Source of the DNA: Candidatus Dormiibacterota bacterium
GTDB taxonomy: Bacteria; Chloroflexota; Dormibacteria; Aeolococcales; Aeolococcaceae
DNA: 45,564 nucleotides
Reading direction: 5' to 3'
Assembly: GCA_036495095.1 (NCBI GenBank)
Contig: DASXNK010000043.1
Location: forward strand, 1-45,564
The position numbers were made by a program, and so were the translations under genes. Under the pieces are notes generated by a model that saw only the letters and a program-made list of their open reading frames with translations, had not been told where the DNA came from and ran no database searches. This document shows, one piece after another, positions 30,701 to 45,564 of this stretch (its first letter is position 1; each line of letters opens with the position of its first letter).

Positions 30701-31715
30701 TGTACGAGGGGAGGGGCCGGCCGATCGTCACCGCGCGGTCGGGGCGAAGCTCGCACCAGGTGGCGGTGACGGTGGTCTCGGTGGGGCCGTAGGTGTTGAG
30801 CATCCGCCGCCCGGGGCGGCTCCAGCGCTGCACCAGGTCCCGCGGGCAGGCCTCGCCGCCGACGATCAGGGTGCGCAGCGAGGGCACCTCGCGGTCGAGG
30901 GTGGCGAGCAGCGTGGGCACGCAGCAGAGCACCGTCACCCCGCGCTCGACCAGGAGGTCGGCGAGCTGGGGGCCGAGCCGGCAGCCGTCGGTGGGCCCCG
31001 CCACCACCGTTGCGCCGGCCATCCACGCCGGCCACATCTCCTCGACGGAGAAGTCGAAGGCGATGGTCATCCCCTGGTACACGCGGTCCTGTGCGGTCAC
31101 GTCGTAGATCGGCGTGACCACATCGAGGAAGTCGCAGATGTTGCCGTGGCTGACCGCAACACCCTTGGGACGGCCGCTCGACCCGGAGGTGTAGATGATG
31201 TACGCGAGGCCATCGCGGCCGGCGTCGGCGTCCGGCCGGGTGGCGGGCACGCCGGCGAGGCAGGAGGGTTCGTCGAGCTCGAGCGCCGGGCAGGGCAGCG
31301 AGCCCGCCGCGGCGGCGGCGAGGGCGGCGCTGGTGAGCACCACCCGGAGGCCGGCATCGGTGGCGATGAAGGCGATCCGGTCGGCGGGGTGGCCCGGGTC
31401 GATGGGGACGAAGGTCGCCCCCGCCTTGAGCACGCCCAGCACCGCGGCGTAGGTCTCGAGCGAGCGCTGCAGGAGGATGCCGACCCGGTCGCCGGGGGCG
31501 ACCCCGAGGGCGATCAGCCGGTGGGCGACGCGGTTGCCCTGGCGGTCGAGCTCGCGGTACCGGGCCTGGCGGTCGCCACACTCCACGGCGACCGCGTCGG
31601 GCACGCGGTCGGAGGTGGTCTCGAAGTGGTGGTGGAGCCGTCCGACACGCCCCCGGACCGGGCTCGACGCCGCCCAGCCCAGGCGCGACGCAGACGTCGG
31701 ATCGGACACTGCCAT
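27729..31715 (-). CDS. Pls/PosA-type non-ribosomal peptide synthetase (A-T-membrane/LbH)
   Basis: A 1328-residue single-module synthetase. The adenylation domain covers about 25-510 (YTSGSSGRPKG 175-185, FDFSVEEMW near 221, NTYGPTETT near 307, YRTGDLGRL 392-400, A10 Lys near 504). The carrier domain follows with FFLDLGGHSL, phosphopantetheine Ser563. Next come a hydrophobic region near 635-690 and a long part with left-handed beta-helix hexapeptide-like repeats (LLGARIGHSCQIATER, LLGARIGRRSEVSTAAHID, LFGARVGRRVC) interleaved with further membrane segments. There is no condensation or thioesterase domain. This matches the terminal-domain architecture of poly-lysine synthetase-like Pls/PosA proteins. 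ATG 31715 has an AGGAAGGGGG tract upstream. The substrate is not determined. Confidence 0.9.
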   Translation of the reverse strand: MAVSDPTSASRLGWAASSPVRGRVGRLHHHFETTSDRVPDAVAVECGDRQARYRELDRQGNRVAHRLIALGVAPGDRVGILLQRSLETYAAVLGVLKAGATFVPIDPGHPADRIAFIATDAGLRVVLTSAALAAAAAGSLPCPALELDEPSCLAGVPATRPDADAGRDGLAYIIYTSGSSGRPKGVAVSHGNICDFLDVVTPIYDVTAQDRVYQGMTIAFDFSVEEMWPAWMAGATVVAGPTDGCRLGPQLADLLVERGVTVLCCVPTLLATLDREVPSLRTLIVGGEACPRDLVQRWSRPGRRMLNTYGPTETTVTATWCELRPDRAVTIGRPLPSYTVRLCDERLRPVPAGEPGEICIGGPGVAQGYVNRPELTAERFVADLTAPGSRMYRTGDLGRLSASGEIEFLGRLDAQVKIRGYRIELGEIEEVVREDEAVENVVVSALEVDGVATDLVAHVTLRRPSGEAELRGRLHDRLRRRLPAYMVPAFIEVLDRLPTLAGSKVARTQLPAPVSPRLGLRADQVVAPATPLEADLLAVWTEVFGHPDISVEADFFLDLGGHSLFAAMVVSRLRRRPESRSVGIGDLYERPTIRALADHLEALSTLAAVGPHDGAATGPRPAALRHRGGRVLAAGAVQLAGLYALVLILGAPAAWLLARSGGSLTASRLVLGALLLPLGFLVTALVLPVAGRWTVAARIRPGRHPLWGATHVRWWMFTRLLALAPLRLLAGSPLMAAYLRLLGARIGHSCQIATERIQTPWLTEIGDGASLGYGVDVMPAVVEDGWLLLDPVRVGAGAVVGTGSVLVGGAEMGPGSRLADQSLLARGQRLPDGQSWGGSPAVPSAEGDALLDAMAAAGHQGRRWSPALGAGFAAGVAVLGVLPFVMAMPGLLLVTLAMARRGLLAAIASTLVAGPVTALTACALVAAGRRLVLARTEPGIHPLCSALGLRKWFADRLMAMSLELSNTLYATLYAVPWLRLLGARIGRRSEVSTAAHIDPDLLTLGEESFVADFASVGAATFAHGAIALGRTELGRRCFVGNAAVVRSHTRLGDSSLIGVQSVAPARPVEAETSWLGSPAIFLPRRQPSEAFSEEVTYRPSAARVTARLAVEYFRITLPATLIALALLLAASVELRLARRGSAIELILATPVVALASGLGVTLLVVLLKWLLVGRYVPRVEPLWALFVRRSELVTGLYESVAVPALLGVLTGTPWIGPLLRLFGARVGRRVCLQTTYLTEFDLVRVGDDACVGASASLQTHLFEDRVMKMSTVTLGRASTVGARAVVLYDAQLADGAMLDPLSLAMKGESLPAGGRWRGIPAGPVHLPG

Positions 31716-31924: not shown

Positions 31925-34015
31925 TCAGCGGCCGACGGCGATCACCACCGTGTCGCCGGCCCGCAGGCCCGATGTGACCTCGGTGCGCGCCGGGTCGCCG
32001 GCACCGATCGTCACCGGCCGGGCCACCGTCCCGCCGCCCTCGCGGGGGACGAGGACGTAGATCGCCGAGCCGGAGGTGTGGATCGCGCTCGTGGGCACGG
32101 TGAGCACCCCGGAGACCTCCTGGACGACGATGCCCATCTGGGCGCTGGCGCCGGGATGGAGGTCGGGATGCTCGCCCCCGATGGCGGCGGTGACGGTGAA
32201 GGTGGCCACCCCGGCGTTGACCAGCGCGGCGGGCGCGATCCCGGTCACGGCGCCGACCACCTGCTCGCCGCCGCCCGCGGGGGTGACGTGGACGCGGTCA
32301 CCGGCGCGGATCAGCCGCAGCTGGGCGTCGCTCACCGGGCCACTGACCTGGTAGGCGGTGGGGGTGAGCAGGACGACGGCGTGGGTGAGGTTGGCGACGC
32401 CGTTGTTCCCCGCGGTGGGCCCGCTGCTCGCCGCGGTGGCCAGCAGCGCGCCGCCGCCGACCGACACGGTGCCGGTGCCCACGCCGGCCACGCTGCCGCT
32501 GCCGATCGCCTGGCCCGGGGCGACGTTCACCTGCTCGACGATACCGTCCACCGGGGCCACCAGCACCGCCGAGGCCACCGCGTCCTGGGCGGCGACCACC
32601 TGGGACTGGTCGGCCTGCACCTGTGCCTCGTCCATGGCCACCTGCTGGGGGATGGTCCCGTTCATCACGGCACTCAGCTGGGCCAGCGAGTTCTGCAGCT
32701 GGATGGTGGCGGTGGTGACCTGGGCCTGGGCCTGGTGGGTGCCCTGCACCGTCCGGGTCTGCGCCTGGACGACGGAGTTGGAGTTGGTCTGCTGCGCCGA
32801 CTGGAACGCGACCCGGGCGTTCTGGAGCTGGATCGTGGCGGCGGCGAGCTGCGCCTGGGCCTGGTCGACGCCGCTCTGCAGCTGGGCCTGGGCCTGGGCG
32901 ACCTGCGCCAGCCCCTGGCGGGTCGACCCCTGCAGCTGGACGGCGGCGCTGCGCAGCTGCACCTGCGCGGTGGCGAGCTGCTGCTCCGCCTGGCCGGCGT
33001 CGAGCTGCAGCCGGGCCTGCGCCTGCACCACCTGGCTCTGGGCGACGGCGGCGGCGCCCTCGTCCTTGACCAGGGTCTGCTGGTCGCCGTTGACCCGCTG
33101 CTGGTCGGAGGTGACCGCCTGGCGGTCGGCCTGGCACTGGGCGGTGGCCGGGGGATGGGCGCAGTCGGCGTTCTCGCGGCCCTGGTCCTGGTGGAGCTGG
33201 CCGAGGTCGGTGCCGAGGCCGTGCTGGTCGACCGCCACCAGGGCGGCGGCGGCGGCGAGCTGCACCTGCGCGGCCTGCACCGCGGCGCCGTCGAGGCGCT
33301 GGACGTCGCCGAGGTTGCGCTGGCCGGCGGTGACCGCCACCTGAGCCGTCGCCACCGCCGCCTGGCCCTGCGCCTGCGCCTGGGCGAAGGTCGCGGCGGC
33401 GAGGGCGACGGTCTCCTGGCCGGAGATCTGGACGTCGAAGAGGCTGCGCTGGTCGGCGGCGACGGTGGCCTCGTCGGCGCCGATCTGTCCCTGGGCCGCG
33501 GCGAGGGCGGTCTGCAGCGCGATCTGCGCCGCCTGCACCACCTCCTGGCCGAGCTGGGCGGTGTCGGAGAGGTTGACCTGGGCGGGCCCCAGCGCCCCCC
33601 GCGCCGACCCCACCGCCCCCTCGGCGGTCACCTCCCCGGTGTTGTTGGGCCCTCCCTCGTCCTGGCGGAGCCTCGCCTGGGCGGAGGCCAGCGCCGAGCG
33701 GGACTGGTCGAGCTGCGCCACCACCCCGGTGGTGTCGAGGGAGGCGAGGATGCCGCCCGCGGCCACGTGCTGCCCCGCCTGCACGGCGACGCTGGCGATA
33801 TGGCCGCCGGTGCCGAAGTCGAGGTCGGTCTCGCTCGCCGGCTGCAGCGTGCCGGTGACGTCCACGGTCTGGGTCACGGTGCCGCGCTGCACCTGGGCGG
33901 TGCGGAGGTTGGACGGGGCGGGCCCGCGGCGGGCGACGAGCACGCCGATGATGGCGACGACGAGCAGCAGCGCCGCCGGGATCATCCAGCGGCGCGGCCG
34001 CAGCCTGGCGGCCAT
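31925..34015 (-). CDS. Membrane-fusion (HlyD/MacA-like) adaptor with very long coiled-coil hairpin
   Basis: A periplasmic-adaptor-type protein of 696 residues with one N-terminal membrane helix (12-27). The lipoyl domain is split: the first half near 55-95 (GHIASVAVQAGQHVAAGGIL), the second near 483-505 (APVDGIVEQVNVAPGQAI), with beta-barrel and membrane-proximal regions after it (GDRVHVTPAGGGEQVVGAV). Between the halves lie about 380 residues of Ala/Gln-rich helix with repeated AQAQLQ-like units. Cys285 and Cys294 flank a Pro-Pro turn at its exact middle. The start is 34015 (AGGAAGGG 9 nt upstream); 34024 is possible. No ABC or RND partner is adjacent. Confidence 0.85.
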   Translation of the reverse strand: MAARLRPRRWMIPAALLLVVAIIGVLVARRGPAPSNLRTAQVQRGTVTQTVDVTGTLQPASETDLDFGTGGHIASVAVQAGQHVAAGGILASLDTTGVVAQLDQSRSALASAQARLRQDEGGPNNTGEVTAEGAVGSARGALGPAQVNLSDTAQLGQEVVQAAQIALQTALAAAQGQIGADEATVAADQRSLFDVQISGQETVALAAATFAQAQAQGQAAVATAQVAVTAGQRNLGDVQRLDGAAVQAAQVQLAAAAALVAVDQHGLGTDLGQLHQDQGRENADCAHPPATAQCQADRQAVTSDQQRVNGDQQTLVKDEGAAAVAQSQVVQAQARLQLDAGQAEQQLATAQVQLRSAAVQLQGSTRQGLAQVAQAQAQLQSGVDQAQAQLAAATIQLQNARVAFQSAQQTNSNSVVQAQTRTVQGTHQAQAQVTTATIQLQNSLAQLSAVMNGTIPQQVAMDEAQVQADQSQVVAAQDAVASAVLVAPVDGIVEQVNVAPGQAIGSGSVAGVGTGTVSVGGGALLATAASSGPTAGNNGVANLTHAVVLLTPTAYQVSGPVSDAQLRLIRAGDRVHVTPAGGGEQVVGAVTGIAPAALVNAGVATFTVTAAIGGEHPDLHPGASAQMGIVVQEVSGVLTVPTSAIHTSGSAIYVLVPREGGGTVARPVTIGAGDPARTEVTSGLRAGDTVVIAVGR

Positions 34016-34137: not shown

Positions 34138-34159
34138 CGCGTGAACCGCAGTTCACGCG
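34138..34159 (-). terminator. Hairpin spanning the ppk1 stop codon
   Basis: CGCGTGAAC and GTTCACGCG, a perfect 9-bp stem with a 4-nt loop, overlaps the TGA stop of ppk1 (34153-34155). No T-run follows. It may mark the end of the phn-ppk1 operon. Confidence 0.45.
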
Positions 34160-36285
34160 CCCGCCCGGCCGGTGCCGATGATCTCGATGACATGCTCCTC
34201 GGCGCCGCGGGCGAGCTCGGCGAGGACCTCGTGCGCGTTGATCCCGCGGCGGCGCGGGACCCGGTGCCACACCCCGTCGGCGTCGAGCTCCCAGGCGAGC
34301 TGGTCGTCGGCGAGGAGCACGTCCACGATGGTCGCGAGCCGAATCTGCAGCCGGGGGTCCAGCACCGGTGCCACCGCCTCGACGCGGTCGTCGAGGTTGC
34401 GGGCCATGATGTCCGCGGAGCCGATGTACCACTCCGCCCCGTCACCGCTGCCGAAACCGTAGATGCGCGAGTGCTCGAGCCAGCGGCCCACCAGCGAGCG
34501 CACCCGGATGTGCTCGGACATCCCCGGCACGCCGGGACGCAGCGAGCAGGTGCTGCGCACGATGAGCTCCACCTGCGCGCCCGCGGTCGAGGCCGCGTAG
34601 AGCGCCTCGATGATCTCCGGATCGACGACGTGGTTGGCCTTGATGACGATGCGGCCGCGGTTCCGCGCCTGGCGGCCGATCAGCTCCAGCAGGCCGGGGC
34701 GCAGCGTCCTCGGCGCCACCAGCAGCCGCCGGTAGCGTCGCTGCCGGCTGTACCCGGTGAGGTAGTTGAAGAGGTCGGTGACGTCGGCGCCGAGCTCGGG
34801 GTCGCAGCTGAACAGCCCCAGGTCCTCGTAGAGGCGGGCCGTCTGCGGGTTGTAGTTGCCGGTGCCGATGTGGCAGTAGCGGCGGATCGCGCCGCCCTCG
34901 CGACGCACCACCAGCGTGGTCTTGGCGTGGGTCTTCAGCCCCACCATGCCGTGGACCACATGCACCCCGGCGCGCTCCAGCACCCGCGCCCAGGCGATGT
35001 TCGCGGCCTCGTCGAAGCGGGCCTTCAGCTCCACCAGGGCGACCACCTGCTTGCCCGCCTCGGCGGCGCCGATCAGGGCGCGGACGATCGCGCTGTCGCC
35101 GTCGGAGGTGCGGTAGAGGGTCTGCTTGATGGCGAGCACGTCGGGGTCGCGCGACGCCTGCTCGATGAAGGCCTCGACCGAGGTGGCGAAGGACTCATAG
35201 GGGAGATGGACGAGCACGTCGCCGTCCCGGATCACCCGGAAGATGTCCGCCGGCCCGCCCTCGTCGTCACCGCGCAACCGGGGCTGGGTGACCGGCTCGT
35301 GGGGCGGGTCCTTCAGCTCCGGCCGGTCGATCCTGTACAGGCCCCAGAGGCCGCCGAGGTCGAGCGGCCCCTCCACCCGGTACACCTCGTCGGGCCCGAT
35401 CTCCAGCTCGCGGACGAGCAGCTCGAGCACCTCGCCGGACATCGTGGCGTCGACCTCCAGCCGCATCACCGTCGGCGAGTGGCGCCGCTTCTGGAGGATG
35501 TCCTCGACCGCGCTCATCACGTCCTCGCCGCGCTCGTCGGCGAGGAAGTCGGCGTTGCGGGTCACCCGGAAGGGGTGGGTGCCGAGCACCCGCATCCCCG
35601 GGAAGAGCCGGTCGAGGTGGGCGGCGATCACCTCCTCGAGGGGGACGAACCGCTCGTGGTCGGGGAGCACGATGAACCGCGGCAGCAGCGGGGGCACCTT
35701 GACCCGGGCGATCCGGGTCACCTCGCCGTCGGGGTCGGCGACCACCACGGCGAGGTTGAGCGACAGGCTGCTGATGTAGGGGAACGGATGCGCGGGGTCG
35801 ACCGCGAGCGGGGTGAGCACGGGGAAGACCTGCTCGTCGAAGACGGTGTCGAGGTGGCGCCGATCCTCGTCGTCGAGGGACGCGTGGGTGCTGTAGCGCA
35901 ACCCGACCTCCTGGAGGCACTCGGTGAGCGCCCCGAAGGCGCGGCCCTGCTCCTCGTAGAGGTCGAGCACCCGCCGGCGGATCAGCCCCAGCTGCTCGGC
36001 CGGGGTGAGACCGTCGGCCGAGCGGGTGCGCACCCCCGCGGCGCGCCGCGCATGGAGGCCGGCGACCCGTACCGCGAAGAACTCGTCGAGGTTGGTGCTG
36101 AAGATCGCCAGGTACTTGGCCCGCTCCAGGGGGCGCTGCTCCGGGTCCTGGGCAAGGGCGAGCACCCGGGCGTTGAACTCGAGCCAGCTGAGGTGCCGGT
36201 TGAGGAACCGCGAGCCGGAGGGCGCGGCGGGTCGCTGCTCGCCGTCGACGGCGGCGCCGGTGGTGGTCCCGGTCTCCGCGGTCAC
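34153..36285 (-). CDS. ppk1: Ppk1, polyphosphate kinase
   Basis: Reversibly polymerises the gamma-phosphate of ATP into polyphosphate. The 710 residues are normal length. The N-terminal domain begins FLNRHLSWLEFNARVLALA, then KYLAIFSTNLDEFFAVRVAG. The phospho-acceptor His is in VHGMVGLKTHAKTTLV, and the second active-site His in RYCHIGTGNYNPQTARLYED. LGLFSCDPELGADVTDLFNYL is typical PPK1. The GTG start overlaps the phoU stop (GTGA). It is the last gene of the phosphonate operon, so phosphate freed by C-P lyase could be stored as polyphosphate. Confidence 0.97.
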   Translation of the reverse strand: MTAETGTTTGAAVDGEQRPAAPSGSRFLNRHLSWLEFNARVLALAQDPEQRPLERAKYLAIFSTNLDEFFAVRVAGLHARRAAGVRTRSADGLTPAEQLGLIRRRVLDLYEEQGRAFGALTECLQEVGLRYSTHASLDDEDRRHLDTVFDEQVFPVLTPLAVDPAHPFPYISSLSLNLAVVVADPDGEVTRIARVKVPPLLPRFIVLPDHERFVPLEEVIAAHLDRLFPGMRVLGTHPFRVTRNADFLADERGEDVMSAVEDILQKRRHSPTVMRLEVDATMSGEVLELLVRELEIGPDEVYRVEGPLDLGGLWGLYRIDRPELKDPPHEPVTQPRLRGDDEGGPADIFRVIRDGDVLVHLPYESFATSVEAFIEQASRDPDVLAIKQTLYRTSDGDSAIVRALIGAAEAGKQVVALVELKARFDEAANIAWARVLERAGVHVVHGMVGLKTHAKTTLVVRREGGAIRRYCHIGTGNYNPQTARLYEDLGLFSCDPELGADVTDLFNYLTGYSRQRRYRRLLVAPRTLRPGLLELIGRQARNRGRIVIKANHVVDPEIIEALYAASTAGAQVELIVRSTCSLRPGVPGMSEHIRVRSLVGRWLEHSRIYGFGSGDGAEWYIGSADIMARNLDDRVEAVAPVLDPRLQIRLATIVDVLLADDQLAWELDADGVWHRVPRRRGINAHEVLAELARGAEEHVIEIIGTGRAGA

Positions 36286-36956
36286 CCCAGCTCCTCGACC
36301 AGGCCGGTCCGCAGGTACACGAGGTCCTCGCCGATGTTGGTGACCCGGTCGGCGATGCGCTCGAGGTGGTGTGCGATCAGGGTCAGGCGGGTGGCGCGGG
36401 CGGCGGCCTCCTCGCCCGCCGCGCAGGCGCGCACCTGCTCGTCGAAGAGCCGGCGGTAGATGCGGTCGACCCGGTCGTCGTGGGACGCGACGGTGCGGGC
36501 CTCCTCCACGTCACCGGCGATCACCGCGTCGAGCATGTCGCCGAGCTGGGTGCGGCACAGCTCGGCCATCCGGGAGAGGCCGGGAAGGCCACCCTCGGAG
36601 CGATCGTCGACGAGCTCGCGGGCGATCTTGGCGATGCTGGCGCAGTGGTCGCCCATCCGCTCCAGCTCCGCCGACATGTGCAGGTAGGCGAGCAGCCGGC
36701 GCAGGTCGCCGTTCACCGGCGCCTGGGTGAGGATGGTGGTCGTCGCCAGCTCGCGGAGCTGGAGCTGGAGCGCGTTGAGCTCGGCGTCGCCGGCGACCAC
36801 CTCGTCGCAGAGCGCGGCATCGTGCTCGACCAGCGCCGCGACCGCACGCGGGATGGCGCGCTCGACGAACTCGGCCATCCGCAGGGCCAGTTCCCGGACC
36901 GCGGCGAGGTCCCGGTCGAGGGCGCCGCGCATCGAGTGAGCGATCACGTCACTCAT
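36282..36956 (-). CDS. phoU: PhoU, phosphate signalling regulator
   Basis: A 224-residue cytosolic helical protein that modulates phosphate sensing through the Pst transporter and its sensor kinase. It has the two three-helix-bundle repeats of PhoU, with metal-binding ELERMGDHCASIAKIA in the first and HHLERIADRVTNIGEDLVYL in the second. ATG 36956 overlaps the GNAT stop (ATGA), and ppk1 starts in its own stop. No pst genes or PhoR/PhoB are in the window, so PhoU here is attached to the phosphonate operon. Confidence 0.95.
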   Translation of the reverse strand: MSDVIAHSMRGALDRDLAAVRELALRMAEFVERAIPRAVAALVEHDAALCDEVVAGDAELNALQLQLRELATTTILTQAPVNGDLRRLLAYLHMSAELERMGDHCASIAKIARELVDDRSEGGLPGLSRMAELCRTQLGDMLDAVIAGDVEEARTVASHDDRVDRIYRRLFDEQVRACAAGEEAAARATRLTLIAHHLERIADRVTNIGEDLVYLRTGLVEELG

Positions 36957-37438
36957 GGTGGCACCGGTGCACCGGCGATGCTCACCCCCGGGTTGCGAAC
37001 CGCGCGCCGGAAGCGCATCGCCGGCCGCCGCTGCTCGAAGCCCTCCCGGCGGTAGAAGCGGTGGGCGGCGGTGCGGAACGAGGACGAGTCGACCGCGATC
37101 TCGCTGCAGCCGAGCGCCGCCGCGGCCTCGTCGACGGCCGCCACCAGCGCCGCGCCGACACCGCCGCCGCGCCGTTCCGAGGCCACGCAGAGCGCCGCCA
37201 GCCAGCCCTGGCGGACGCCGTCCAGCATGTACGGACGGGCCTGCACCTCGGCGTAGCCGACGACGGCGCCGTCCTCCTCGGCCACCAGCATGCGCACCCC
37301 GGGGGTGCTCAGCGCCGCGTGGTAGACGGCGCCGACCGCGGGATTGCCGGTGGCGCCGTCGTGGCCGCCCATGGCGTCCACGAGCGCGGCGACCGCGGCG
37401 GCGTCCCCGCCGGTGGCGGGGCGGATGGTCAGAGCCAC
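36953..37438 (-). CDS. GNAT acetyltransferase in the phn operon (PhnO-like role possible)
   Basis: A 161-residue GNAT. RPATGGDAAAVAALVDAMGG is the N-terminal helix region, MLVAEEDGAVVGYAEVQ the central sheet, and ALCVASERRGGGVGAALVAAVDE the acetyl-CoA motif A, followed by AHRFYRREGFEQR. PhnO, an aminoalkylphosphonate N-acetyltransferase, is the same size and family and occurs in phn operons, so an equivalent role is the best guess. It is placed by context, not by a specific signature. The GTG overlaps the end of the HD gene by 10 nt; its stop overlaps the phoU ATG. Confidence 0.82.
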   Translation of the reverse strand: MALTIRPATGGDAAAVAALVDAMGGHDGATGNPAVGAVYHAALSTPGVRMLVAEEDGAVVGYAEVQARPYMLDGVRQGWLAALCVASERRGGGVGAALVAAVDEAAAALGCSEIAVDSSSFRTAAHRFYRREGFEQRRPAMRFRRAVRNPGVSIAGAPVPP

Positions 37439-37953
37439 AGGCGGGTGAGGCGGTCGAGCAGGTCGGCGGGCTGCGGGGTGGGGGCGCCGGGCACCTTGGC
37501 CCGGTCGTCCCAGCGGCGCAGCGAGAGCGCGTCGGCCGCCCAGGCATGGGCGGTGAAGCGGCCCAGGTCGGAGCCGGTGGCGGCCCCTCCCTGGTCGGTG
37601 AGCGAGCTCGTCGAGGCGACGCTGAGGGTGGCCGCGTAGGCCGGCTCGGTGGCCACCAGCACCCGCTTGGCGAGCACGTGGGCGCCCACCAGCCAGGCCA
37701 CCCGCGCGCCCAGGACCGCCGAGCAGAAGCGCGCCCCCGCGGCCTCGTGGGGAAGCCGCGGGCACTCCCCGGCGACCTCGGGCAGCCGGGCGATGTCGTG
37801 GAGCGCCGCGGCCACCACCAGGGCGTTGTCGGCGCCCGCGGCGATCGCCTGGCCGGCGGTCTGCATCGCGTGGGCGAGCTGGTCGACGGGCTCGCCCATC
37901 GGCGGCAGCGCCGCGAGCCGGAGGAGCAGCTCGCAGACGCCGGCGGGGGTCAC
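37429..37953 (-). CDS. Phosphonate-operon HD-domain protein (PhnZ / phn_HD-like)
   Basis: A 174-residue HD-domain protein. Its C-terminal half, VGAHVLAKRVLVATEPAY, SLTDQGG and LRRWDDRAKVPG, is the signature of the HD proteins found in phosphonate operons, the family of the diiron oxygenase PhnZ. Likely metal ligands are His28, His52, Asp53, His69, His92 and Asp149, matching PhnZ His34, His58, Asp59, His80, His104 and Asp161; Lys96 matches Lys108. The substrate-contact Tyr24 and His62 of PhnZ correspond to Pro18 and Arg56, so the reaction probably differs. PhnZ numbering is from memory. GTG overlaps the phnM stop (GTGA). Confidence 0.85.
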   Translation of the reverse strand: MTPAGVCELLLRLAALPPMGEPVDQLAHAMQTAGQAIAAGADNALVVAAALHDIARLPEVAGECPRLPHEAAGARFCSAVLGARVAWLVGAHVLAKRVLVATEPAYAATLSVASTSSLTDQGGAATGSDLGRFTAHAWAADALSLRRWDDRAKVPGAPTPQPADLLDRLTRLWL

Positions 37954-39116
37954 CGTGCCCCCACGCCGGCGGCGACGGCGCCCAGCACCGGATGCCCCGC
38001 CACCCAGGTCTGGCGCACCACCGGGTGGCCGGCGACGCACTCCACCGCCACCAGGTCGGCACGGCAGCCCACCTCGAGGCGCCCCCGGTCGGTGAGGCCG
38101 GCCAGCCGGGCCGGACCCTCGGTCACCAGCGCCGCCGCCGCCGCCCAGTCGCAGCCGGTGTCGGCGGCGATCAGGTAGGCGGCGACCAGCAGCGAGGGCG
38201 GGTGGTAGTCGGAGGCGAGGGCGTCGAGGCAGCCGTCGGCGAGGGCGCCGCGCGCCGAGAGGTTGCCGTAGTGGGAGATCCCCCGCCGGGCGTTGGGGGC
38301 GCCCATGAGGATGCCCAGGCCTGCCTCGCGGGCGGCGTGGGCGGCCTCCAGGGTGACCGGGAACTCGGCGATGACCGCGCCCAGGCCGGCGGCGCGTCGC
38401 ACCGTCGCCGCGGAGTCGTCGTCGTGGGAGGCGAGGGCGACGCCGGCGTTGCGCGCCAGCCGGGCGACCCGCTCGCGCACCTCCGCGGCCCGCCCCTGGC
38501 CACGCTGCTTCTCCAGCAGGCGCAGCCGCAGCTCCACGTCGACGTCGCCGTCGGCGTGCTCGGCGAGCTGGGTGTAGTAGCCCCGCCAGGCGGTCACATC
38601 GGTGAACTGGCCCTGCCCCGGGGTGTGGTCCATGTACGAGATCAGCCCGAGCGCCCCGCCGGCGGCGATCTCCGGAGCCGCCTCGACGGTGGTGCCGGTG
38701 ACGTCGACGCGCAGGTGCAGGCGGTGGTCGACGCGCAGCCCTGACCGCTGGGCGACGATCGCGGCGGCGACGGTGCGGGCGCGGTCGATGCTGCGGTGCT
38801 TGACCGCGTCGTCCTCGAGCGAGATGCAGAGCATGTGGGTGGTGATGCCGTGGCCCGCGAGCTCGCCGTCGAGGTCGTGGAGCGCCGCCTCGAGGGGCAG
38901 CACCGTGGTCGGCCGCGGCCGGGCCCGCTGCTCCAGGCAGTCGGAGTGGAGGTCGACCAGGCCGGGGAGCAGGTCGAGGTCGCCGAGGTCGACGCGGGTG
39001 GCGGCGGCGGGCGGCTCCGGGCCCACCCCGGCGATGTGCCCGTCCTCGACCGCGACCCACCAGCCGCGGCGGGTGGCACCGGCGATGGGGAGGCGGGCGC
39101 CGCGGTACGCGATCAT
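37950..39116 (-). CDS. phnM: PhnM, ribose 1-methylphosphonate 5-triphosphate diphosphatase
   Basis: Removes pyrophosphate from alpha-D-ribose 1-phosphonate 5-triphosphate to give the substrate of PhnJ. It is an amidohydrolase-fold enzyme of 388 residues. The metal motif DLHSDCLEQRARPRPT has His57 and Asp59. Other typical segments are GHGITTHML, VALASHDDDS, ILMGAPNARRGISHYGN and the Asp in ALASDYHPPSLL. The ATG overlaps the phnL stop (ATGA) and the gene ends inside the start of the HD gene. Confidence 0.96.
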   Translation of the reverse strand: MIAYRGARLPIAGATRRGWWVAVEDGHIAGVGPEPPAAATRVDLGDLDLLPGLVDLHSDCLEQRARPRPTTVLPLEAALHDLDGELAGHGITTHMLCISLEDDAVKHRSIDRARTVAAAIVAQRSGLRVDHRLHLRVDVTGTTVEAAPEIAAGGALGLISYMDHTPGQGQFTDVTAWRGYYTQLAEHADGDVDVELRLRLLEKQRGQGRAAEVRERVARLARNAGVALASHDDDSAATVRRAAGLGAVIAEFPVTLEAAHAAREAGLGILMGAPNARRGISHYGNLSARGALADGCLDALASDYHPPSLLVAAYLIAADTGCDWAAAAALVTEGPARLAGLTDRGRLEVGCRADLVAVECVAGHPVVRQTWVAGHPVLGAVAAGVGAR

Positions 39117-39790
39117 GCCGCCACCAGGGCGCCCTCGCGCATGGTCAGCACCTCGTCGACCAGGCCGCCGCCGGTGGGCACGTCGTGGAAGACGGCGAGG
39201 ATGGTGGCGCCCTCGCGCTTGCGGTCCAGCACCGCCCCCAGCGCCCGCTCGCGCCGGTGGTGGTCGAGCGACGCGGTGATCTCGTCGAGGAGCAGCAGGG
39301 GCCGGGGGAGGGCGAGGCTGCGGGCGATGTTCACGACCTGGCGCTCGCCTCCGCTGAAGGTGGCCGGGGGTGCCTCCAGCAGCCGCTCGGCGAGGCCGAG
39401 GCGGAGCAGCCGGTCGGCGGCGTCGTCGCGCGCCACCCCCGCGGCGGCGACCAGGTCGACCGCCGCGATCCGGGGGATGGCCTCGAGGAACTGGGTGGCC
39501 AGCGACATCAGACCGCGGCGCGCTGCGAGGATCTCGCGGGCGCCGGCGGCGGCGACGTCGAGGTCGCTACCGCGGTGGCGGAGCACGATGCTGCCGGCGT
39601 CGCAGTGGTAGGTGCCGTGGATGCAGCGGAGCAGCGACGACTTGCCCGACCCGCTCTCCCCGGTGATCACCGTGCAGCTTCCCGGCGCCACCTCCAGGCT
39701 GACACCGCGCAGCACCTCGACCCGGAGGCCGTCGAGGAGGTGACGGGTGAAGCCCTTGCGGAGCCCGCCGACACTCACCCCCACGCTCAC
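39113..39790 (-). CDS. phnL: PhnL, ABC-type ATPase of the C-P lyase system
   Basis: A 225-residue ATP-binding protein required for the C-P lyase core (with PhnI). Walker A is GESGSGKSS (44-52), YHCDAGSIVLRHRGSDLD is typical PhnL, the signature motif reads FSGGERQ, and Walker B is LLLLDEITASLD. The GTG start at 39790 overlaps the phnK stop (GTGA). Unlike transport ABC proteins it has no permease of its own; PhnE and PhnC form the transporter. Confidence 0.95.
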   Translation of the reverse strand: MSVGVSVGGLRKGFTRHLLDGLRVEVLRGVSLEVAPGSCTVITGESGSGKSSLLRCIHGTYHCDAGSIVLRHRGSDLDVAAAGAREILAARRGLMSLATQFLEAIPRIAAVDLVAAAGVARDDAADRLLRLGLAERLLEAPPATFSGGERQVVNIARSLALPRPLLLLDEITASLDHHRRERALGAVLDRKREGATILAVFHDVPTGGGLVDEVLTMREGALVAA

Positions 39791-40599
39791 AGCTGCGAGC
39801 TGACCAGCAGCTGGGTGTACGGGTGCTGGGGGTCGGCGAGGAGCTGGTCGCAAAGACCCTCCTCGATCACCCGTCCCCGGTGCATCACCAGCAGCCGCTG
39901 GGCCAGGGTGCGGATCACCCCCAGGTCGTGGGAGACCACCAGGACCGCCACCCGGGTCTCCTCGTGGATGCGGCGGACCAGGTCGAGGATGCGCGCCTGG
40001 ACGCTGACGTCGAGGCCGGAGGTGGGCTCGTCGAGAAGCAGCACCCCCGGCGAGTTGGCCAGTGCCCGGGCGAGCTGCACCCGCTGGCGCATGCCCCCGC
40101 TGTAGAGGCTGACCCGGGTGTCGGCGCGGTCGAGGGGCAGCTCCACCTCGGCGAGCAGGTCGAGCACCCGGCGGCGGATGTCGTCGAAGCCGCGCCACCC
40201 CGAGGCGAGCAGCCGCACCGCCACGTTGCCGCCGGCGGAGACGTCGAGGTCGAGGCCCTGCTGCGGGGTCTGGTAGACGATGCCGAGGCGCTCGGCGCGC
40301 ACCCGGCGGCGGGCGCCGCCGCGGCTGTCGGTGACGTCCTCGCCGCCCACCAGCACCCGGCCGCGGGTGGGGGCGAGGTCGAGGTTGGCGCAGCCCAGCG
40401 CCGTCGACTTCCCGCTGCCGGACTCGCCGACGATGCCGAGCACCTCTCCGGGGCGCACGTCGAGGCTGAGCCGCCGGCAGCCGATCACCGCGCCGCAGGC
40501 GGCGCAGCGGGCCGGCGCCTCGGCCGGGTCGGAGCACTCCGCGCAGCCGGCGCCGTAGCGCACGGTGACGTCGCGGAGCTCGAGGGCGGCCGCGCTCAT
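39787..40599 (-). CDS. phnK: PhnK, ABC-type ATPase of the C-P lyase complex, with zinc-ribbon insertion
   Basis: A 270-residue ATPase that binds the PhnGHIJ core. Walker A GESGSGKST is at 58-66, the signature LYSGGMRQRVQLARAL is intact, Walker B is VLLLDEPTSGLD and the H-loop VVSHDLG. The N-terminus has an insertion between YGAG and the first helix: C19-x2-C22, nine residues, C32-x2-C35 and then C41 (GCAECSDPAEAPARCAACG), which looks like a small zinc-binding loop. The E. coli protein lacks it. ATG overlaps the phnJ stop (ATGA). Confidence 0.95.
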   Translation of the reverse strand: MSAAALELRDVTVRYGAGCAECSDPAEAPARCAACGAVIGCRRLSLDVRPGEVLGIVGESGSGKSTALGCANLDLAPTRGRVLVGGEDVTDSRGGARRRVRAERLGIVYQTPQQGLDLDVSAGGNVAVRLLASGWRGFDDIRRRVLDLLAEVELPLDRADTRVSLYSGGMRQRVQLARALANSPGVLLLDEPTSGLDVSVQARILDLVRRIHEETRVAVLVVSHDLGVIRTLAQRLLVMHRGRVIEEGLCDQLLADPQHPYTQLLVSSQL

Positions 40600-41474
40600 C
40601 GGATCCGCCCCTCGCGGCGGCGGCGGCACCAGTCGGTGTCGGAGCAGATCAGCCGGGGCGGTGCACCGCCGCCGGAGCACTCGACCCGGAAGCTGGTCGC
40701 CGACCCGCAGCGGCTGCAGGGGGCGGCGAAGCGCTCGGCCTCGAAGGGGCGGTCGTCGAAGGCGAGGGGGCGCACCGCGGTGTAGGGGGGCACCGCGTAC
40801 ACCGTGGCCTCGCGGCCGGCGCCGAAGAGCGAGATGTGGGGCGCGCCGTCGAGCCGCCCCAGGTCGTGGCGGGGGATCGGCGAGGGGCTCATCACGTAGC
40901 CACCCTCGACCTCGACGGGGTGGCTGTGGGTGAACGAGGCGTGGTCGTGGTGGACCAGGTCCTCGTAGAGGTAGAGCCAGACCCCGGAGTAGTCGCCCTC
41001 GGCGTGCATCCGCCGGGTCACCGAGGGCCGGGGGTCGACGATCCGCAGCGGGTCGGCGATCGGCACCTGGAACACCAGCACCACCTCCTCGTCGAGCTCC
41101 TCCTCGGGGATGCGGTGGCGGGTCTGGATCAGCGTCGCCCGCGGGGTCTCGGTGGTCGCGCGGGCGCCCGTGGTGCGGGTCACCAGGTCGCGGATGCCGG
41201 CGGCGTTGAGGCTGTCGTCGTCGCCCTGGTCGATCACCTTCACGCTGTCCTCGGGCACCACCACCGCGAGCGTGACCTGGAGGCCGCCGCTGCCCCACCC
41301 GCGCGCCACCGGCATCTCCCGGGAGGCGAAGGGGATCTGGTGGCCGGGGATGCAGAGCGCCTTGAGCAGGGCCCGGCGGACCTCGCGCTTGGCGGTCTCG
41401 TCGAGGTAGGCGTGGTTGTAGCCGCGCCGCCCGGCGGCGCCGCCGGTGAGCAGCCCGTCGAGCGCCGCGCTCAC
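40596..41474 (-). CDS. phnJ: PhnJ, carbon-phosphorus lyase
   Basis: The radical SAM enzyme that breaks the C-P bond of ribose 1-phosphonate 5-phosphate. The protein has 292 residues. GYNHAYLDETAKREVRRALL, PGHQIPFASREMPVARGWG and the His-rich HHDHASFTHSHPVEVEGGYV are conserved PhnJ blocks. The cluster cysteines Cys253, Cys256 and Cys277 and the radical-forming Cys283 keep the E. coli spacing (241, 244, 266, 272) to within one residue; an extra Cys266 is present. ATG overlaps the phnI stop region (4 nt). Confidence 0.97.
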   Translation of the reverse strand: MSAALDGLLTGGAAGRRGYNHAYLDETAKREVRRALLKALCIPGHQIPFASREMPVARGWGSGGLQVTLAVVVPEDSVKVIDQGDDDSLNAAGIRDLVTRTTGARATTETPRATLIQTRHRIPEEELDEEVVLVFQVPIADPLRIVDPRPSVTRRMHAEGDYSGVWLYLYEDLVHHDHASFTHSHPVEVEGGYVMSPSPIPRHDLGRLDGAPHISLFGAGREATVYAVPPYTAVRPLAFDDRPFEAERFAAPCSRCGSATSFRVECSGGGAPPRLICSDTDWCRRRREGRIR

Positions 41475-42517
41475 CGCCCCGCCACCGTGGCGTCCTCGAC
41501 CCGGTCGCCGAGGGCGGCGAGCCGCTCCAGGTCGCTGGTGAAGGTGACGTGGTGCGGGAGCTTGAGGTGCTCGACGAAGCCCGCCGCCTCCTGGCCGTCG
41601 AGGACGGTCTCGAGGAACTCGCGGTCGTCGCAGGGCGGCGGCGCCGCGTCGGAGTCGAGGGAGGCGCGGGCGCAGTTGGCGTCGAGCAGCGCGGCACTGA
41701 TGGCACGGCGCTCGACCCGGCCGCAGGTGCCCCCGACGCCGACGGTCAGGCGGGGGTCGGCGACCCCGTCGTGGACCCGGTAGAGCACCACCTCGGCGCT
41801 GGTCGCGACCAGCTCGCCCACCCGCACCGGCTCGCCGCTGAGCGGGTGGGTGACGGAGACCGAGAGCGTCCCCTGACGGAGCTCGACCAGGGTGGGGTCG
41901 CTGCGCTGGCCGTAGCCGCGGATGCCGGAGTAGGCGAGTGCGGTCATCGCCCCGGTCTCGCCCCGGGCCAGCCGCCCCCGCAGGTCACCGCGATCGTCGC
42001 CCCCGGCGGCGGCGACCAGGCCACCACGCTCCAGCCCCTCGAGCGCCCGGGGAAAGCACCGCGGCGGCGGCGCGGCGGGCTCGGGCGCCGGCCCGCCCTC
42101 GACGCCGGCTGCCGGCCCGGGGTCCTCGTCGAGGTCGAGCAGGCGCTGGGCGTAGTCGAGGGTGGCGCCGAGGTACTGGCCGCCGGGGGGGTCGACGAAG
42201 GCGGGGGTGATCCGGCGCAGCGGCCGCATCCCGCCGGCGGCGACGGTGCAGCCGGCGAGCCGGGGCAGGGTCGCCGCCCAGGCGCGCACCAGCGAGACCG
42301 CGCGGGCGACGTCGCCGCGGGCCTGGCGGAGCGCCCGGGCGCAGATCCGCGGCTCCGCCACCCCCGCCTCGGCGGCGACCTGGTCGACGAGGAGGGGGAG
42401 GAGGGCGCAGAGGTCGTCGACCCCGGCCTCGCCGGCGGCGACCGGGGCGGCGCCGTCGCGGGCCAGGCGCGCCGCCGCGGCGATGGCGCCGGTCTGGTCG
42501 AGGACGGTGGTGTACAT
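41471..42517 (-). CDS. phnI: PhnI, C-P lyase core subunit (nucleosidase)
   Basis: With PhnG, PhnH and PhnL, PhnI replaces adenine of MgATP by the phosphonate to make ribose 1-phosphonate 5-triphosphate. The 348 residues fit the family: MYTTVLDQTGAIAAAARLA at the N-terminus, QARGDVARAVSLVRAW, PPGGQYLGATLDYAQRLLDL and GRLARGETGAMTALAYSGIR. TVGVGGTCGRVERRAISAALLD and LPHHVTFTSDLERLAAL are near the C-terminus. The middle (about 120-170) is a Pro/Ala-rich linker. Its ATG overlaps the phnH stop by one base (TGATG). Confidence 0.95.
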   Translation of the reverse strand: MYTTVLDQTGAIAAAARLARDGAAPVAAGEAGVDDLCALLPLLVDQVAAEAGVAEPRICARALRQARGDVARAVSLVRAWAATLPRLAGCTVAAGGMRPLRRITPAFVDPPGGQYLGATLDYAQRLLDLDEDPGPAAGVEGGPAPEPAAPPPRCFPRALEGLERGGLVAAAGGDDRGDLRGRLARGETGAMTALAYSGIRGYGQRSDPTLVELRQGTLSVSVTHPLSGEPVRVGELVATSAEVVLYRVHDGVADPRLTVGVGGTCGRVERRAISAALLDANCARASLDSDAAPPPCDDREFLETVLDGQEAAGFVEHLKLPHHVTFTSDLERLAALGDRVEDATVAGR

Positions 42518-43041
42518 CAGCGCAGCCGCTCGACGCGGGTGGTGCGGGGCAGGGCGGCCACCCGCCCGGCGGAGTCGATGACGAGCAGGTCGACACCGAG
42601 CGGCCAGGTGGCGCAGGCGGCGTCGCGGGCGTCGAGCTCGGAGGCGTCGAGCGGCAGCTCGGTGTCGAGGTGCCCCGCCACCCCCGGGCCCCGCAGCCGC
42701 AGCCGCCGGCCGGGCCCCGGCTCGGCGACCGCATAGACCGCGGTCGCGCCCGCCTCGGGGCAGGCCTCGTCGCCGCGGGGCAGGCGGGCGAGGGCACCGC
42801 CGGAGCCGCCGCCGCCCACCACCAGCAGCTCGGCGCCGGCCGCCGGCGCCGCGGCGGACGCCCAGGGCAGGGGCGGCGGCACGCCCGCCAGGGCCACCCG
42901 GCAGCCGGCGTCCCAGGTGGAGCCCAGCACCAGGGCGAGGGCCGCCTCGGTGGTGGGCGCGACCGGCACCCGGCGGCCGGGGTAGCCGAGGGCGACGAGG
43001 ACCGCCCGGTAGGCGCGATGGAGCGCGGCGGCGCGGGTCAT
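42517..43041 (-). CDS. phnH: PhnH, C-P lyase core subunit
   Basis: A structural subunit of the PhnGHIJ complex, 174 residues (E. coli about 194). Family features are LHRAYRAVLVALGYPGRRVP and LLGSTWD-like LVLGSTWDAG. The C-terminal half has AEPGPGRRLRLRGPGVAGH followed by WPLGVDLLVIDSAGRVAALPRTTRV. It is shorter through the central region. ATG 43041 overlaps the phnG stop (4 nt); the frame stays open far upstream inside phnG and phnF, which is a shadow. Confidence 0.93.
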   Translation of the reverse strand: MTRAAALHRAYRAVLVALGYPGRRVPVAPTTEAALALVLGSTWDAGCRVALAGVPPPLPWASAAAPAAGAELLVVGGGGSGGALARLPRGDEACPEAGATAVYAVAEPGPGRRLRLRGPGVAGHLDTELPLDASELDARDAACATWPLGVDLLVIDSAGRVAALPRTTRVERLR

Positions 43042-43433
43042 CCGGGGACCACCCGGGTGGCGGCCACCGCCGCCGCGCCGGCGTCTGCCCGAGCCCGCTC
43101 GTCGGCGAGGGCGGCGGTGGCGAGGGCGGTCACCGCGTCGTCGGCGCGGGCGTCGCAGAGCGCGGCGGCGAGCGCGGCGCGGTCGTCCCAGCCGAGCACG
43201 CAGGCCCAGCCGCGGCGGCCCGCCAGCTCGACGGTGGCGGTGGTCACCACGGCGTCGACGAGCGCGAGCTCGCCCGCCACCGTCGCCAGCCGCACCGGCA
43301 CCACCGCCGCCGCCGGCGGCTCCACCACCCCGGCGCCGGAGCCGGCGGCGATGGCGGCCGCGAGCGAGAGCAGCGCCTCGCGCCGGGTGCGCGCCGCCGC
43401 GGCCAGGCCGGAGGCGCGCTGGGCGGCGGTCAC
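43038..43433 (-). CDS. phnG: PhnG, C-P lyase core subunit
   Basis: A 131-residue subunit of the C-P lyase core. It shows RRREAL-like TRREALLSL, PVRLATVAGELALVDAVVTTATVEL, RRGWACVLGWDDRAALAAALCDA and a helical C-terminus. The GTG at 43433 overlaps the phnF stop (GTGA); the longer ATG at 43484 would lie inside phnF and is rejected. Confidence 0.93.
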   Translation of the reverse strand: MTAAQRASGLAAAARTRREALLSLAAAIAAGSGAGVVEPPAAAVVPVRLATVAGELALVDAVVTTATVELAGRRGWACVLGWDDRAALAAALCDARADDAVTALATAALADERARADAGAAAVAATRVVPG

Positions 43434-44161
43434 GGCACCCGGCCCATCTCGAACACGACCCGGAAGATGTCGGCACGGAGCCACGAGGTGGTCACCTCGA
43501 CGGGGCGGCGGTGGCTCGCGGAGCCGGTGAGCGCGCGCACCTCGTAGACCGCCGGGCGCCCGGCCACGCCGATCCGCTGGGCGACGTCGGAGGACGCGGT
43601 GACCAGCTCGGCGCGGGCCCAGGTGCGCACCGGGCGCAGCCGGTACTCCTCGGCGAGGGTCCGGTGGAGCGACCCGTCCTCGGCCAGTACCCTGGCGAGG
43701 CCGGGGACGAGCTCGGCCACCAGCCAGGTGTCGGCGCAGGCGGCGGGCTCGCCGTCGACGCCGCGCTGGCGGCGGAGCTGGAGGAGCGGGGTGGCGTCGT
43801 CGACCTCGAGCACCTCACGGACCCAGCGTGGCGCCCGGGCGAGGCGGAGCCGCTCGGTGCGGGTCGAGGGCACCGCCCCGCCGAGACGCACCGCGTGGCT
43901 CCAGCTGGGCGGGAGGTCGGGGGCAATCCGGTACTCGACCCGGTGGGCCACGAAGGTGCCCCTGCCCTGGCTGCGGCGGACCAGGTGGCGCCGCTCCAGC
44001 TCGTCGAGGGCGGCGCGAGCGGTGAGCCGGTTCACCCCCCGCTGGCGGGCCAGCTCGTGCTCGGAGGGCAGGGGCGTCCCCGCCGGCCGGCGGGCGATGC
44101 CGGCCTCGATCTCGTCGGCGAGGCTGAGATACGTCGGCTGCTGCGGGCTGGTGGTGCGCAC
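43430..44161 (-). CDS. phnF: PhnF, GntR-family regulator (HutC/UTRA type)
   Basis: Represses phn operons in response to phosphate-linked signals. The N-terminal winged helix (YLSLADEIEAGIARRPAGTP, LPSEHELARQRGVNRLTARA, ALDELERRHLVRRSQGRGTF) is a standard GntR domain; the C-terminal UTRA ligand domain ends in VTTSWLRADIFRVVFEMGR. The GTG at 44161 is used: the promoter at 44169-44197 puts the transcription start near 44162, so the upstream ATG at 44173 lies inside the -10 box. The operator lies in the same promoter, so autoregulation is likely. The stop overlaps phnG (GTGA). Confidence 0.92.
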   Translation of the reverse strand: MRTTSPQQPTYLSLADEIEAGIARRPAGTPLPSEHELARQRGVNRLTARAALDELERRHLVRRSQGRGTFVAHRVEYRIAPDLPPSWSHAVRLGGAVPSTRTERLRLARAPRWVREVLEVDDATPLLQLRRQRGVDGEPAACADTWLVAELVPGLARVLAEDGSLHRTLAEEYRLRPVRTWARAELVTASSDVAQRIGVAGRPAVYEVRALTGSASHRRPVEVTTSWLRADIFRVVFEMGRVP

Positions 44162-44168
44162 CGTCCGC

Positions 44169-44197
44169 AGCATATCAACATGTCTAGACAACCTCAA
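44169..44197 (-). promoter_or_regulatory. phnF promoter with 17-nt spacer
   Basis: On the minus strand TTGAGG (44197-44192), 17 nt, TATGCT (44174-44169). Transcription would start at the GTG of phnF (44161), giving a leaderless message. It would drive phnF-G-H-I-J-K-L-M, HD, GNAT, phoU and ppk1. Confidence 0.65.
44181..44190. promoter_or_regulatory. PhnF operator TGTCTAGACA
   Basis: A perfect 10-bp palindrome within the promoter spacer. Its core GTCTAGAC fits the GT-N-TA-N-AC consensus of HutC-type GntR regulators. Binding here would block the promoter. Confidence 0.75.
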
Positions 44198-44217: not shown

Positions 44218-45036
44218 TCATCGGATGCGCCTGCGCAGCAGCACGGCGAGCCCCTCGACGATGAGGATCAGCACCAGCATCACCAGCAGCAGGGTGGTGA
44301 GCTTCTGGTACTGGAAGAGGTTGAGGGTGGTGAAGATCTGCAGCCCCAGCCCGCCGCCGCCGACGAAGCCGAGGGCGATGGTGGAGCGGAGGTTGGTGTC
44401 GAAGCGGTAGATGGTGAGGCCGAGCAGGGTGGGCAGCACCCCGGGCAGCACCGCGTGGGTGGCCACCTGCATGCGGCCGGCGCCGCCGACCCGGAGCACG
44501 TGCACCGGGCCCATCTCCATGTCCTCGATGCACTCCGCGTAGAGCCGGCCGAGGATGCCCACGGAGTGCACGCCCAGCCCGAGCGTGCCGGGAAACGGGC
44601 CCAGACCCACCGCGGTGACGAAGAGCAGCGCCCAGACGATGTCGGGGATGGCGCGGCAGATGCCGATGACCGCCCGGCTGGCGTAGTAGGCGACCGGGTT
44701 CGGGGTGGTGTTCTCGGCGGCGCAGAGCGCCAGCGGGACGCTGATCACCATCGCCAGCACCGTCCCCAGGAGGGCGACGTCGAGGGTCTCGACCGCCGCT
44801 CCCAGGGCGGGCTGCAGGTCGGTGACGTCCGGAGGTGAGCCGCGGTGGAGGATGTCGACGATGCCGCCCACCCCGGTGACGACCTCCGCGGGGTTGAAGT
44901 GGGTGACGTGCACCGCCTGGGCCAGGACCACGAGGATGACGGCGGCGCCGGCGGCATTGCCGGCCAGCTCGCGGCCGCCGCGGCGGGGGCGGGGCAGCTC
45001 GCCGCCGGGGCGGCGACCGGCGGCGGCGAGGCTCAC
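44218..45036 (-). CDS. phnE: PhnE, phosphonate ABC transporter permease
   Basis: The inner-membrane permease of the PhnCDE phosphonate importer. The 272 residues contain about six hydrophobic segments (GNAAGAAVILVVLAQAVHV, VALLGTVLAMVISVPLALCAA, ICRAIPDIVWALLFVTAVG, and later ones). The permease loop before the last segments reads VGGAGRMQVATHAVLPGVLPTLL. The GTG overlaps the phnC stop (GTGA). It ends 56 bp upstream of phnF, which has its own promoter. Confidence 0.95.
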   Translation of the reverse strand: MSLAAAGRRPGGELPRPRRGGRELAGNAAGAAVILVVLAQAVHVTHFNPAEVVTGVGGIVDILHRGSPPDVTDLQPALGAAVETLDVALLGTVLAMVISVPLALCAAENTTPNPVAYYASRAVIGICRAIPDIVWALLFVTAVGLGPFPGTLGLGVHSVGILGRLYAECIEDMEMGPVHVLRVGGAGRMQVATHAVLPGVLPTLLGLTIYRFDTNLRSTIALGFVGGGGLGLQIFTTLNLFQYQKLTTLLLVMLVLILIVEGLAVLLRRRIR

Positions 45037-45564
45037 GCCGGCACGCCGAGCCCGCGGTAGAGCCGGGTCAGGGCGGCGTCGTCGACCTCGGCGGCGGGGC
45101 TGTCGACCACCACCCGGCCGGCACGCAGCCCGACGATGCGATCGGCGTGCCAGCGCGCCAGCTCGGGCTGGTGGAGCACGCAGACCACCGCCATCCCCTC
45201 GTCGACGGCGAGGCTGCGGAGCAGCGCCATCACCTCCTCGGTGGCGTCGGGGTCGAGGCTGGCGACGGGCTCGTCGGCGAGCAGCACCCGGGGCTGCTGG
45301 GTGAGCGCCCGGGCGATCGCGACCCGCTGCGCCTGGCCGCCGGAGAGCGTTCCTGCCCGCTGCGAGGCGTACTCGGCGAGCCCCACGCGGTCGAGCGAAT
45401 CGAGCGCGCGGGCCTTCAGCTCCGCCGGGAAGAGCTTCGTGGAAAGAGAGCGCCGTAGCGGCAGCTCGCCGAGGGCGCCGAAAGCGACGTTCTCCAGGGA
45501 GGTGCGGCGGCGAACGACGAGCACCTGCTGGAACACCATCGCCGCCTGACGCCGCGCACGCCGC
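45033..45564 (-). CDS. phnC: PhnC, phosphonate ABC transporter ATP-binding protein (5' end beyond window)
   Basis: The ATPase of the phosphonate importer. 176 residues are visible, continuing upstream without a stop to the window edge. It has the Q-loop MVFQQ, VVRRRTSLENVAFGAL, signature TLSGGQAQRVAIARAL, Walker B VLLADEPVASLD and the H-loop CVLHQPELA. Walker A lies outside. An ATG at 45539 is internal to the domain and is not the true start. PhnD, the binding protein, would be expected upstream of the window. Confidence 0.95.
   Translation of the reverse strand, partial: RRARRQAAMVFQQVLVVRRRTSLENVAFGALGELPLRRSLSTKLFPAELKARALDSLDRVGLAEYASQRAGTLSGGQAQRVAIARALTQQPRVLLADEPVASLDPDATEEVMALLRSLAVDEGMAVVCVLHQPELARWHADRIVGLRAGRVVVDSPAAEVDDAALTRLYRGLGVPA

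Follow-up and report, generated by a model that had tools for sequence, protein, structure and literature searches.

A carbon-phosphorus lyase cassette probably joined to a resident phoU-ppk1 pair in a Dormibacteria genome

Introduction

In Escherichia coli, the carbon-phosphorus (C-P) lyase genes belong to the phnCDEFGHIJKLMNOP operon (PMC10574752). The polyphosphate gene ppk has been described together with Pst transport genes in the pitH1-pstSCAB-ppk supercluster of Streptomyces and in the phosphate island of HIMB59, which carries its C-P lyase in a separate island (PMC7866108; PMC10734472). Here we analyse a stretch of 45,564 nucleotides (nt) from Candidatus Dormiibacterota (the window; positions 1-45,564, the whole of contig C43 of genome bin G000, with 216 contigs, 4.38 Mb, 96.6% completeness and 2.5% contamination), in which a run of phn genes leads directly into phoU and ppk1. 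The locus shares with that of E. coli a transporter, the PhnF repressor, the GHIJKLM core and a PhnO-like GNAT acetyltransferase in one run, but it has no phnN or phnP and has an HD-domain gene, phoU and ppk1. It resembles the Streptomyces and HIMB59 clusters in linking ppk to other phosphorus genes, whereas there the link is to Pst transport and here to C-P lyase. In the open literature searched we found no phn genes linked to phoU-ppk1, although such a locus may have been reported elsewhere.

It is likely (probability about 0.72), judging from comparisons of gene order and sequence, that a phn cassette related to actinobacterial ones came to adjoin a resident phoU-ppk1 pair, and that transcription from PhnF-controlled promoters now probably extends into the pair. 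If so, an operon that appears designed can be a recent join, its tight overlaps having been inherited with the cassette or imposed by the downstream start codon.

Results and discussion

From phnF to ppk1 there are twelve genes, all on the minus strand, and each of the eleven junctions overlaps by 1-10 nt (4, 4, 1, 4, 4, 4, 4, 4, 10, 4 and 4 nt in the order phnF, G, H, I, J, K, L, M, HD, GNAT, phoU, ppk1). This agrees with the initial annotation of the locus, as does the lack of any intergenic room for a promoter, phoU-ppk1 lying directly downstream of the phn run. In the sampled rest of the G000 DNA, 11/49 same-strand neighbours overlap by 1-10 nt and 25/49 overlap or lie at most 30 nt apart, and against this background eleven overlaps at eleven junctions are unusually tight. 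The initial annotation, whose title names neither of the two genes, HD and GNAT, that separate phnM from phoU, went further and took the overlaps as a sign of translational coupling within a functional partnership of phosphonate use and polyphosphate storage. Overlap as such does not demonstrate coupling, and we rejected it as proof.

Most of the overlaps appear to have come with the cassette. The nearest actinobacterial phn operons, L033 (Acidimicrobiales) and L034 (Solirubrobacteraceae), have the same order phnD-C-E-F-G-H-I-J-K-L-M followed by HD and GNAT genes, and a nearly identical series of overlaps from phnF to phnM (4, 4, 1, 4, 4, 4 and so on); most of these are also present in L032 from Chloroflexota. 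Shared as they are with related cassettes from other phyla, the overlaps up to phnM are, on sequence comparison, an inherited property of the cassette and not eleven independent events. Only the GNAT-phoU and phoU-ppk1 junctions bear on the proposed partnership. The two actinobacterial operons differ from the window at exactly this end: their GNAT is the first half of a fusion with an inositol monophosphatase (IMPase) and neither phoU nor ppk1 is found in the flanks covered, whereas the window runs into phoU-ppk1 with an unfused GNAT, and no IMPase was found in the window. In L032 and L035 the IMPase is a separate gene downstream of phnM.

The joint itself can be located by comparison with G008, a genome of the same genus, in which one contig carries the order MFP-ppk1-phoU-(about 280 nt)-paaE-paaC-paaB-paaA without phn genes (MFP, a membrane-fusion-like biotin-lipoyl gene; the paa names are our own reading of the sequences). 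DNA homology between G000 and G008 begins 3 nt before the ATG of phoU, and on the other side of the locus the alignment continues through the ppk1-MFP intergenic DNA. Within its first 8 nt phoU, which starts with ATGAGTGA, has a TGA in each of the two other frames, and therefore an incoming open reading frame in either of these frames ends there; the window GNAT does so, about 13 residues past its domain. The same start, ATGAG(T/C)GA, is found in G008, where no gene overlaps it. Since the start of phoU itself carries the stops, the GNAT-phoU overlap looks like the expected scar of a joint, explained by the first codons of phoU, and it is not evidence of selected coupling. The remaining junction, phoU-ppk1, varies among relatives, from a 3-nt gap in G008 to a mostly 1-nt overlap in the family members G006 and G026-G031.

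On the same comparisons, phoU-ppk1 is a resident pair. The pairs of G008, G006 and G026-G031 are co-directional and adjacent or overlapping as in the window, but they have CHAD genes downstream, or paa, regulator/ppx-like or pst genes upstream, and none is next to phn. The window pair is probably accessory, because contig C211 of G000 keeps another phoU, beside ABC-transporter genes of the pst kind, and another ppk1, linked to CHAD/CYTH. The idea that the PhoU of the window senses phosphate for the phn operon is not supported: the pst-linked PhoU is a different gene, and G000 has about four PhoU-type proteins (8 domain matches), of which the window copy is one. In genus g14, phoU-ppk1-CHAD forms one unit (L123:11882-15567, L125:3678-7968); the genus of the window has such a unit in two parts, each with its own ppk1 paralogue, phoU accompanying one and a CHAD-like gene the other.

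The phn genes, on the other hand, are newcomers or at least not a property of the family, as far as distribution tells. PhnJ was found in 1/110 genomes of the class and in 36/400 genomes of the phylum Chloroflexota. A tree of 110 PhnJ sequences puts that of the window in a supported clade of eight, with six sequences from Actinomycetota and one from a distant member of Chloroflexota, apart from the remaining PhnJs of its phylum. Transfer between phyla would be the natural reading, the tree alone being no proof.

The initial annotation had suggested surveying phn loci for phoU-ppk1 at their 3' end. Our search took in 116 phn loci, of which 80 were named PhnJ loci and 36 came from the phylum, with some shared; tblastn was used on the 80 and home-built profiles on all 116. 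In 87/116 the sequence covered extended at least 6.5 kb downstream of phnJ, which is roughly how far from phnJ the ppk1 gene ends in the window. Neither ppk1 nor phoU was found within the covered flanks of any of them (0/116), while the six-frame set gave PhnJ in 116/116 and the PhoU profile picked up the PhoU of the window. Among the phn genomes checked for it, 28/29 have ppk1 elsewhere. The linkage was seen in G000 only and is absent from relatives as far as these could be checked, an outcome that the initial annotation itself had named as refuting its reading, so that phn-phoU-ppk1 fails as a general rule for the phn loci surveyed and as a conserved module; in the relatives checked, the pairing is local to G000. 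It is therefore improbable that the locus is an adaptive operon, kept together by selection, that co-expresses and translationally couples the genes for phosphonate breakdown, PhoU and polyphosphate storage. Such an operon would fit the eleven unbroken overlaps, the lack of a promoter or convincing terminator found between the genes, the chemical relatedness of the pathways and the intact catalytic motifs: the C-terminal cysteines of PhnJ (CSRCGS...ICSDTDWC, aligned to PDB 7z15 chain D and 4xb6) and both catalytic His motifs of PPK1 (GLKTHAK and LEHSRIY, aligned to PDB 1xdo). It fits poorly with the survey and the phn-free locus of the congener, with overlaps that are inherited or forced by the phoU start, and with the further phoU and ppk1 genes of G000.

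A second contig of G000, C194, carries paaA-E followed by a pyruvate kinase gene (pyk) and, in the same orientation, by phnD and phnC, which places the phn genes between paaE and phoU, as judged from the two contigs. This arrangement speaks against the concern that C43 is an assembly or binning artefact fusing foreign phn DNA to the phoU-ppk1 of the host. The number of contigs, the contamination of the bin and the fact that phn was not seen elsewhere in the class could raise such a suspicion, but phnD-phnC lies beside the other flank (paaE-pyk) on a separate contig, and the GC content of the phn genes, overall and at third codon positions (GC3), is near that of their neighbours. We consider an artefact very improbable.

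The preferred reading, a cassette joined to a resident pair, would involve the following steps. A C-P lyase cassette (phnD-phnC ... phnC-phnE-phnF-phnGHIJKLM-HD-GNAT) would have come between the paa genes and phoU-ppk1, the IMPase domain would have been lost, and the 3' end would then have been joined at the start codon of phoU. Transcription from the phn promoters, under PhnF control, would now continue into the pair, and the cell retains its separate pst-linked phoU and CHAD-linked ppk1. Several points weigh against this reading. We looked for a direct overlap of C194 and C43 and found none, their phnC fragments being different genes; the contigs are linked by synteny, across a remaining gap. 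The polarity rests on distribution, and a deletion in G008 would look similar, so that an insertion on the G000 branch cannot be told with certainty from a deletion on that of G008. The 281 nt between paaE and phoU in G008 match neither flank in G000, and the fusion of GNAT and IMPase may postdate the divergence of the relatives. In a further congener, G009 (68% complete), paaE-pyk is common with G000 (89% DNA identity) and the contig ends at pyk. This last observation means that pyk is not unique to G000, and, together with the lack of a pyk match in G008, it would suit an old linkage in the genus (paaE-pyk-phn-phoU-ppk1) from which G008 deleted pyk and phn, still unseen outside the genus. 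We regard this as unlikely, as no PhnJ was found in the other genomes of the class examined, though G008 and G009 are only 67-68% complete, and as the unmatched intergenic DNA of G008 does not fit it either.

If the cassette did join the pair, the two would probably share a transcript in G000. A putative PhnF operator, the palindrome TTGTCTAGACA, lies just upstream of phnF and fits the operator consensus of the HutC subfamily, GTMTAKAC (PMC4494728). Its core TTGTCTAGA is found again upstream of phnD on C194 and within the full palindrome upstream of phnF in L034 and L076. We infer from these sites that PhnF would control both phn promoters (phnD and phnF), with read-through reaching phoU-ppk1. 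No sigma-70-like promoter and no convincing terminator were seen in the phnF-ppk1 run, the scan being weak at 75% GC, where the expected number of hits is near zero, and an Rfam search gave no RNA element. It is rather unlikely that phoU-ppk1 is expressed independently of phn from a promoter of its own within the GNAT coding sequence, which would be compatible with the joining and speak against a shared transcript. The pair of the congener stands alone, about 280 nt from its upstream neighbour, and can thus do without phn for its expression; against this, no DNA upstream of phoU is conserved between G000 and G008, and no promoter-like site was found upstream of phoU in the window or in G008, the scan being limited by the GC content in both.

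More tentatively, the joint could have rewired polyphosphate synthesis, in that phoU-ppk1, once on its own promoter, would now answer to PhnF and growth on phosphonate would directly raise polyphosphate storage. A catabolic operon gained by horizontal transfer would then have brought a resident storage pair under its regulation, a natural example of regulatory capture. If the co-transcription is real, the locus also offers a natural experiment on whether a link between polyphosphate synthesis and phosphonate use has any effect.

Genes of the locus and minor observations

The features are collected in Table 1. The phnG-H-I-J-K-L-M core is complete in the window, PhnG and PhnH being under the cut-offs of their models and PhnI being recognised by tblastn. 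The phnH-phnI junction is TGATG, the only 1-nt overlap. For phnF the start may be ATG 44173 or GTG 44161, of which the initial annotation took the latter. The run continues upstream of phnF with phnE and then phnC, cut by the contig end; phnC and phnE overlap by 4 nt (GTGA), and the gap of 44-57 nt between phnE and phnF contains the palindrome. PhoU has two PhoU domains and a full-length match to TIGR02135 (169 bits, above the cut-off of 130), and PPK1 has four PPK domains.

Table 1. Positions of the features discussed, on the numbering of the window.
Feature	Position	Strand	Basis
phnC, 3' part, phosphonate ABC transporter ATPase	45033..45563	-	PF00005; aligned to phnC of C194 and of relatives
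phnE, transporter permease	44218..45036	-	PF00528; sole copy found in genome
Putative PhnF operator	44181..44191	-	Palindrome; fits HutC-subfamily consensus
phnF, GntR/HutC repressor	43430..44173	-	PF00392 (GntR) and PF07702 (UTRA)
phnG	43038..43433	-	PF06754, 30.3 bits vs cut-off 32.4 (just under); tblastn matches in relatives
phnH	42517..43041	-	TIGR03292, 71.3 bits vs cut-off 91.5
phnI	41471..42517	-	tblastn, 47-58% to phnI of the seven nearest phn loci
phnJ, C-P lyase radical-SAM subunit	40596..41474	-	PF06007, 2.8e-115
phnK	39787..40599	-	TIGR02323 best match, under cut-off
phnL	39113..39790	-	TIGR02324 best match, under cut-off
phnM	37950..39116	-	TIGR02318 / NF011984 and NF011990
HD-domain protein, PhnZ/TmpB oxygenase kind	37429..37953	-	TIGR03276, 136.8 bits vs cut-off 214.6; alignment to PhnZ 4mlm
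GNAT acetyltransferase, PhnO-like	36953..37438	-	PF00583; PRK10146 best match
Putative joint, start of DNA homology to congener paaE-phoU-ppk1 locus	36956..36959	-	G000-G008 DNA comparison
phoU, resident gene by comparison	36282..36956	-	TIGR02135; 77% to G008
ppk1, resident gene by comparison	34153..36285	-	TIGR03705; 79% to G008
Biotin-lipoyl (membrane-fusion-like, MFP) gene, downstream neighbour of ppk1	31925..33985	-	Conserved in G008, 71%

The two genes between phnM and phoU are assigned with caution. The HD protein misses the TIGR03276 cut-off for HD oxygenases of the PhnZ/TmpB kind, and the TmpB and PhnZ models are far under theirs. Its H/HD/H/H/D motifs, which we take to be metal ligands, align with those of PhnZ (4mlm) and are retained, and the gating Tyr of the YxGE motif is replaced by Pro. 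The GNAT does not reach the curated PhnO family (PRK10146, 49.6 bits against a cut-off of 142). IMPase matches were found in 40/116 phn loci, the named ones being nearly all actinobacterial, and genes of the inositol-monophosphatase family lie near phnM at L033:10203-11453, L034:13487-14827, L032:14515-15318 and L035:13445-14287. C-P lyase pathways without phnN and phnP may use its product as an accessory enzyme that has been overlooked.

The phosphonate transporter genes are divided between phnC and phnE in the window and phnD-phnC on C194. Two different phnC genes thus border the gap between the contigs (window 45033-45563; L145:1-489), which suggests, from the sequences, two phosphonate or phosphite transporters in one cluster. 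G000 has two pyruvate kinase genes, 84% identical (L145:1628-3049, L200:3256-4686), one of which sits between paaE and phnD and is also found in G009. Elsewhere in the window, ARAGORN predicted a tRNA-Asp at 29286-29378 within a long minus-strand open frame (27729-31604), and one of the two is probably wrong.

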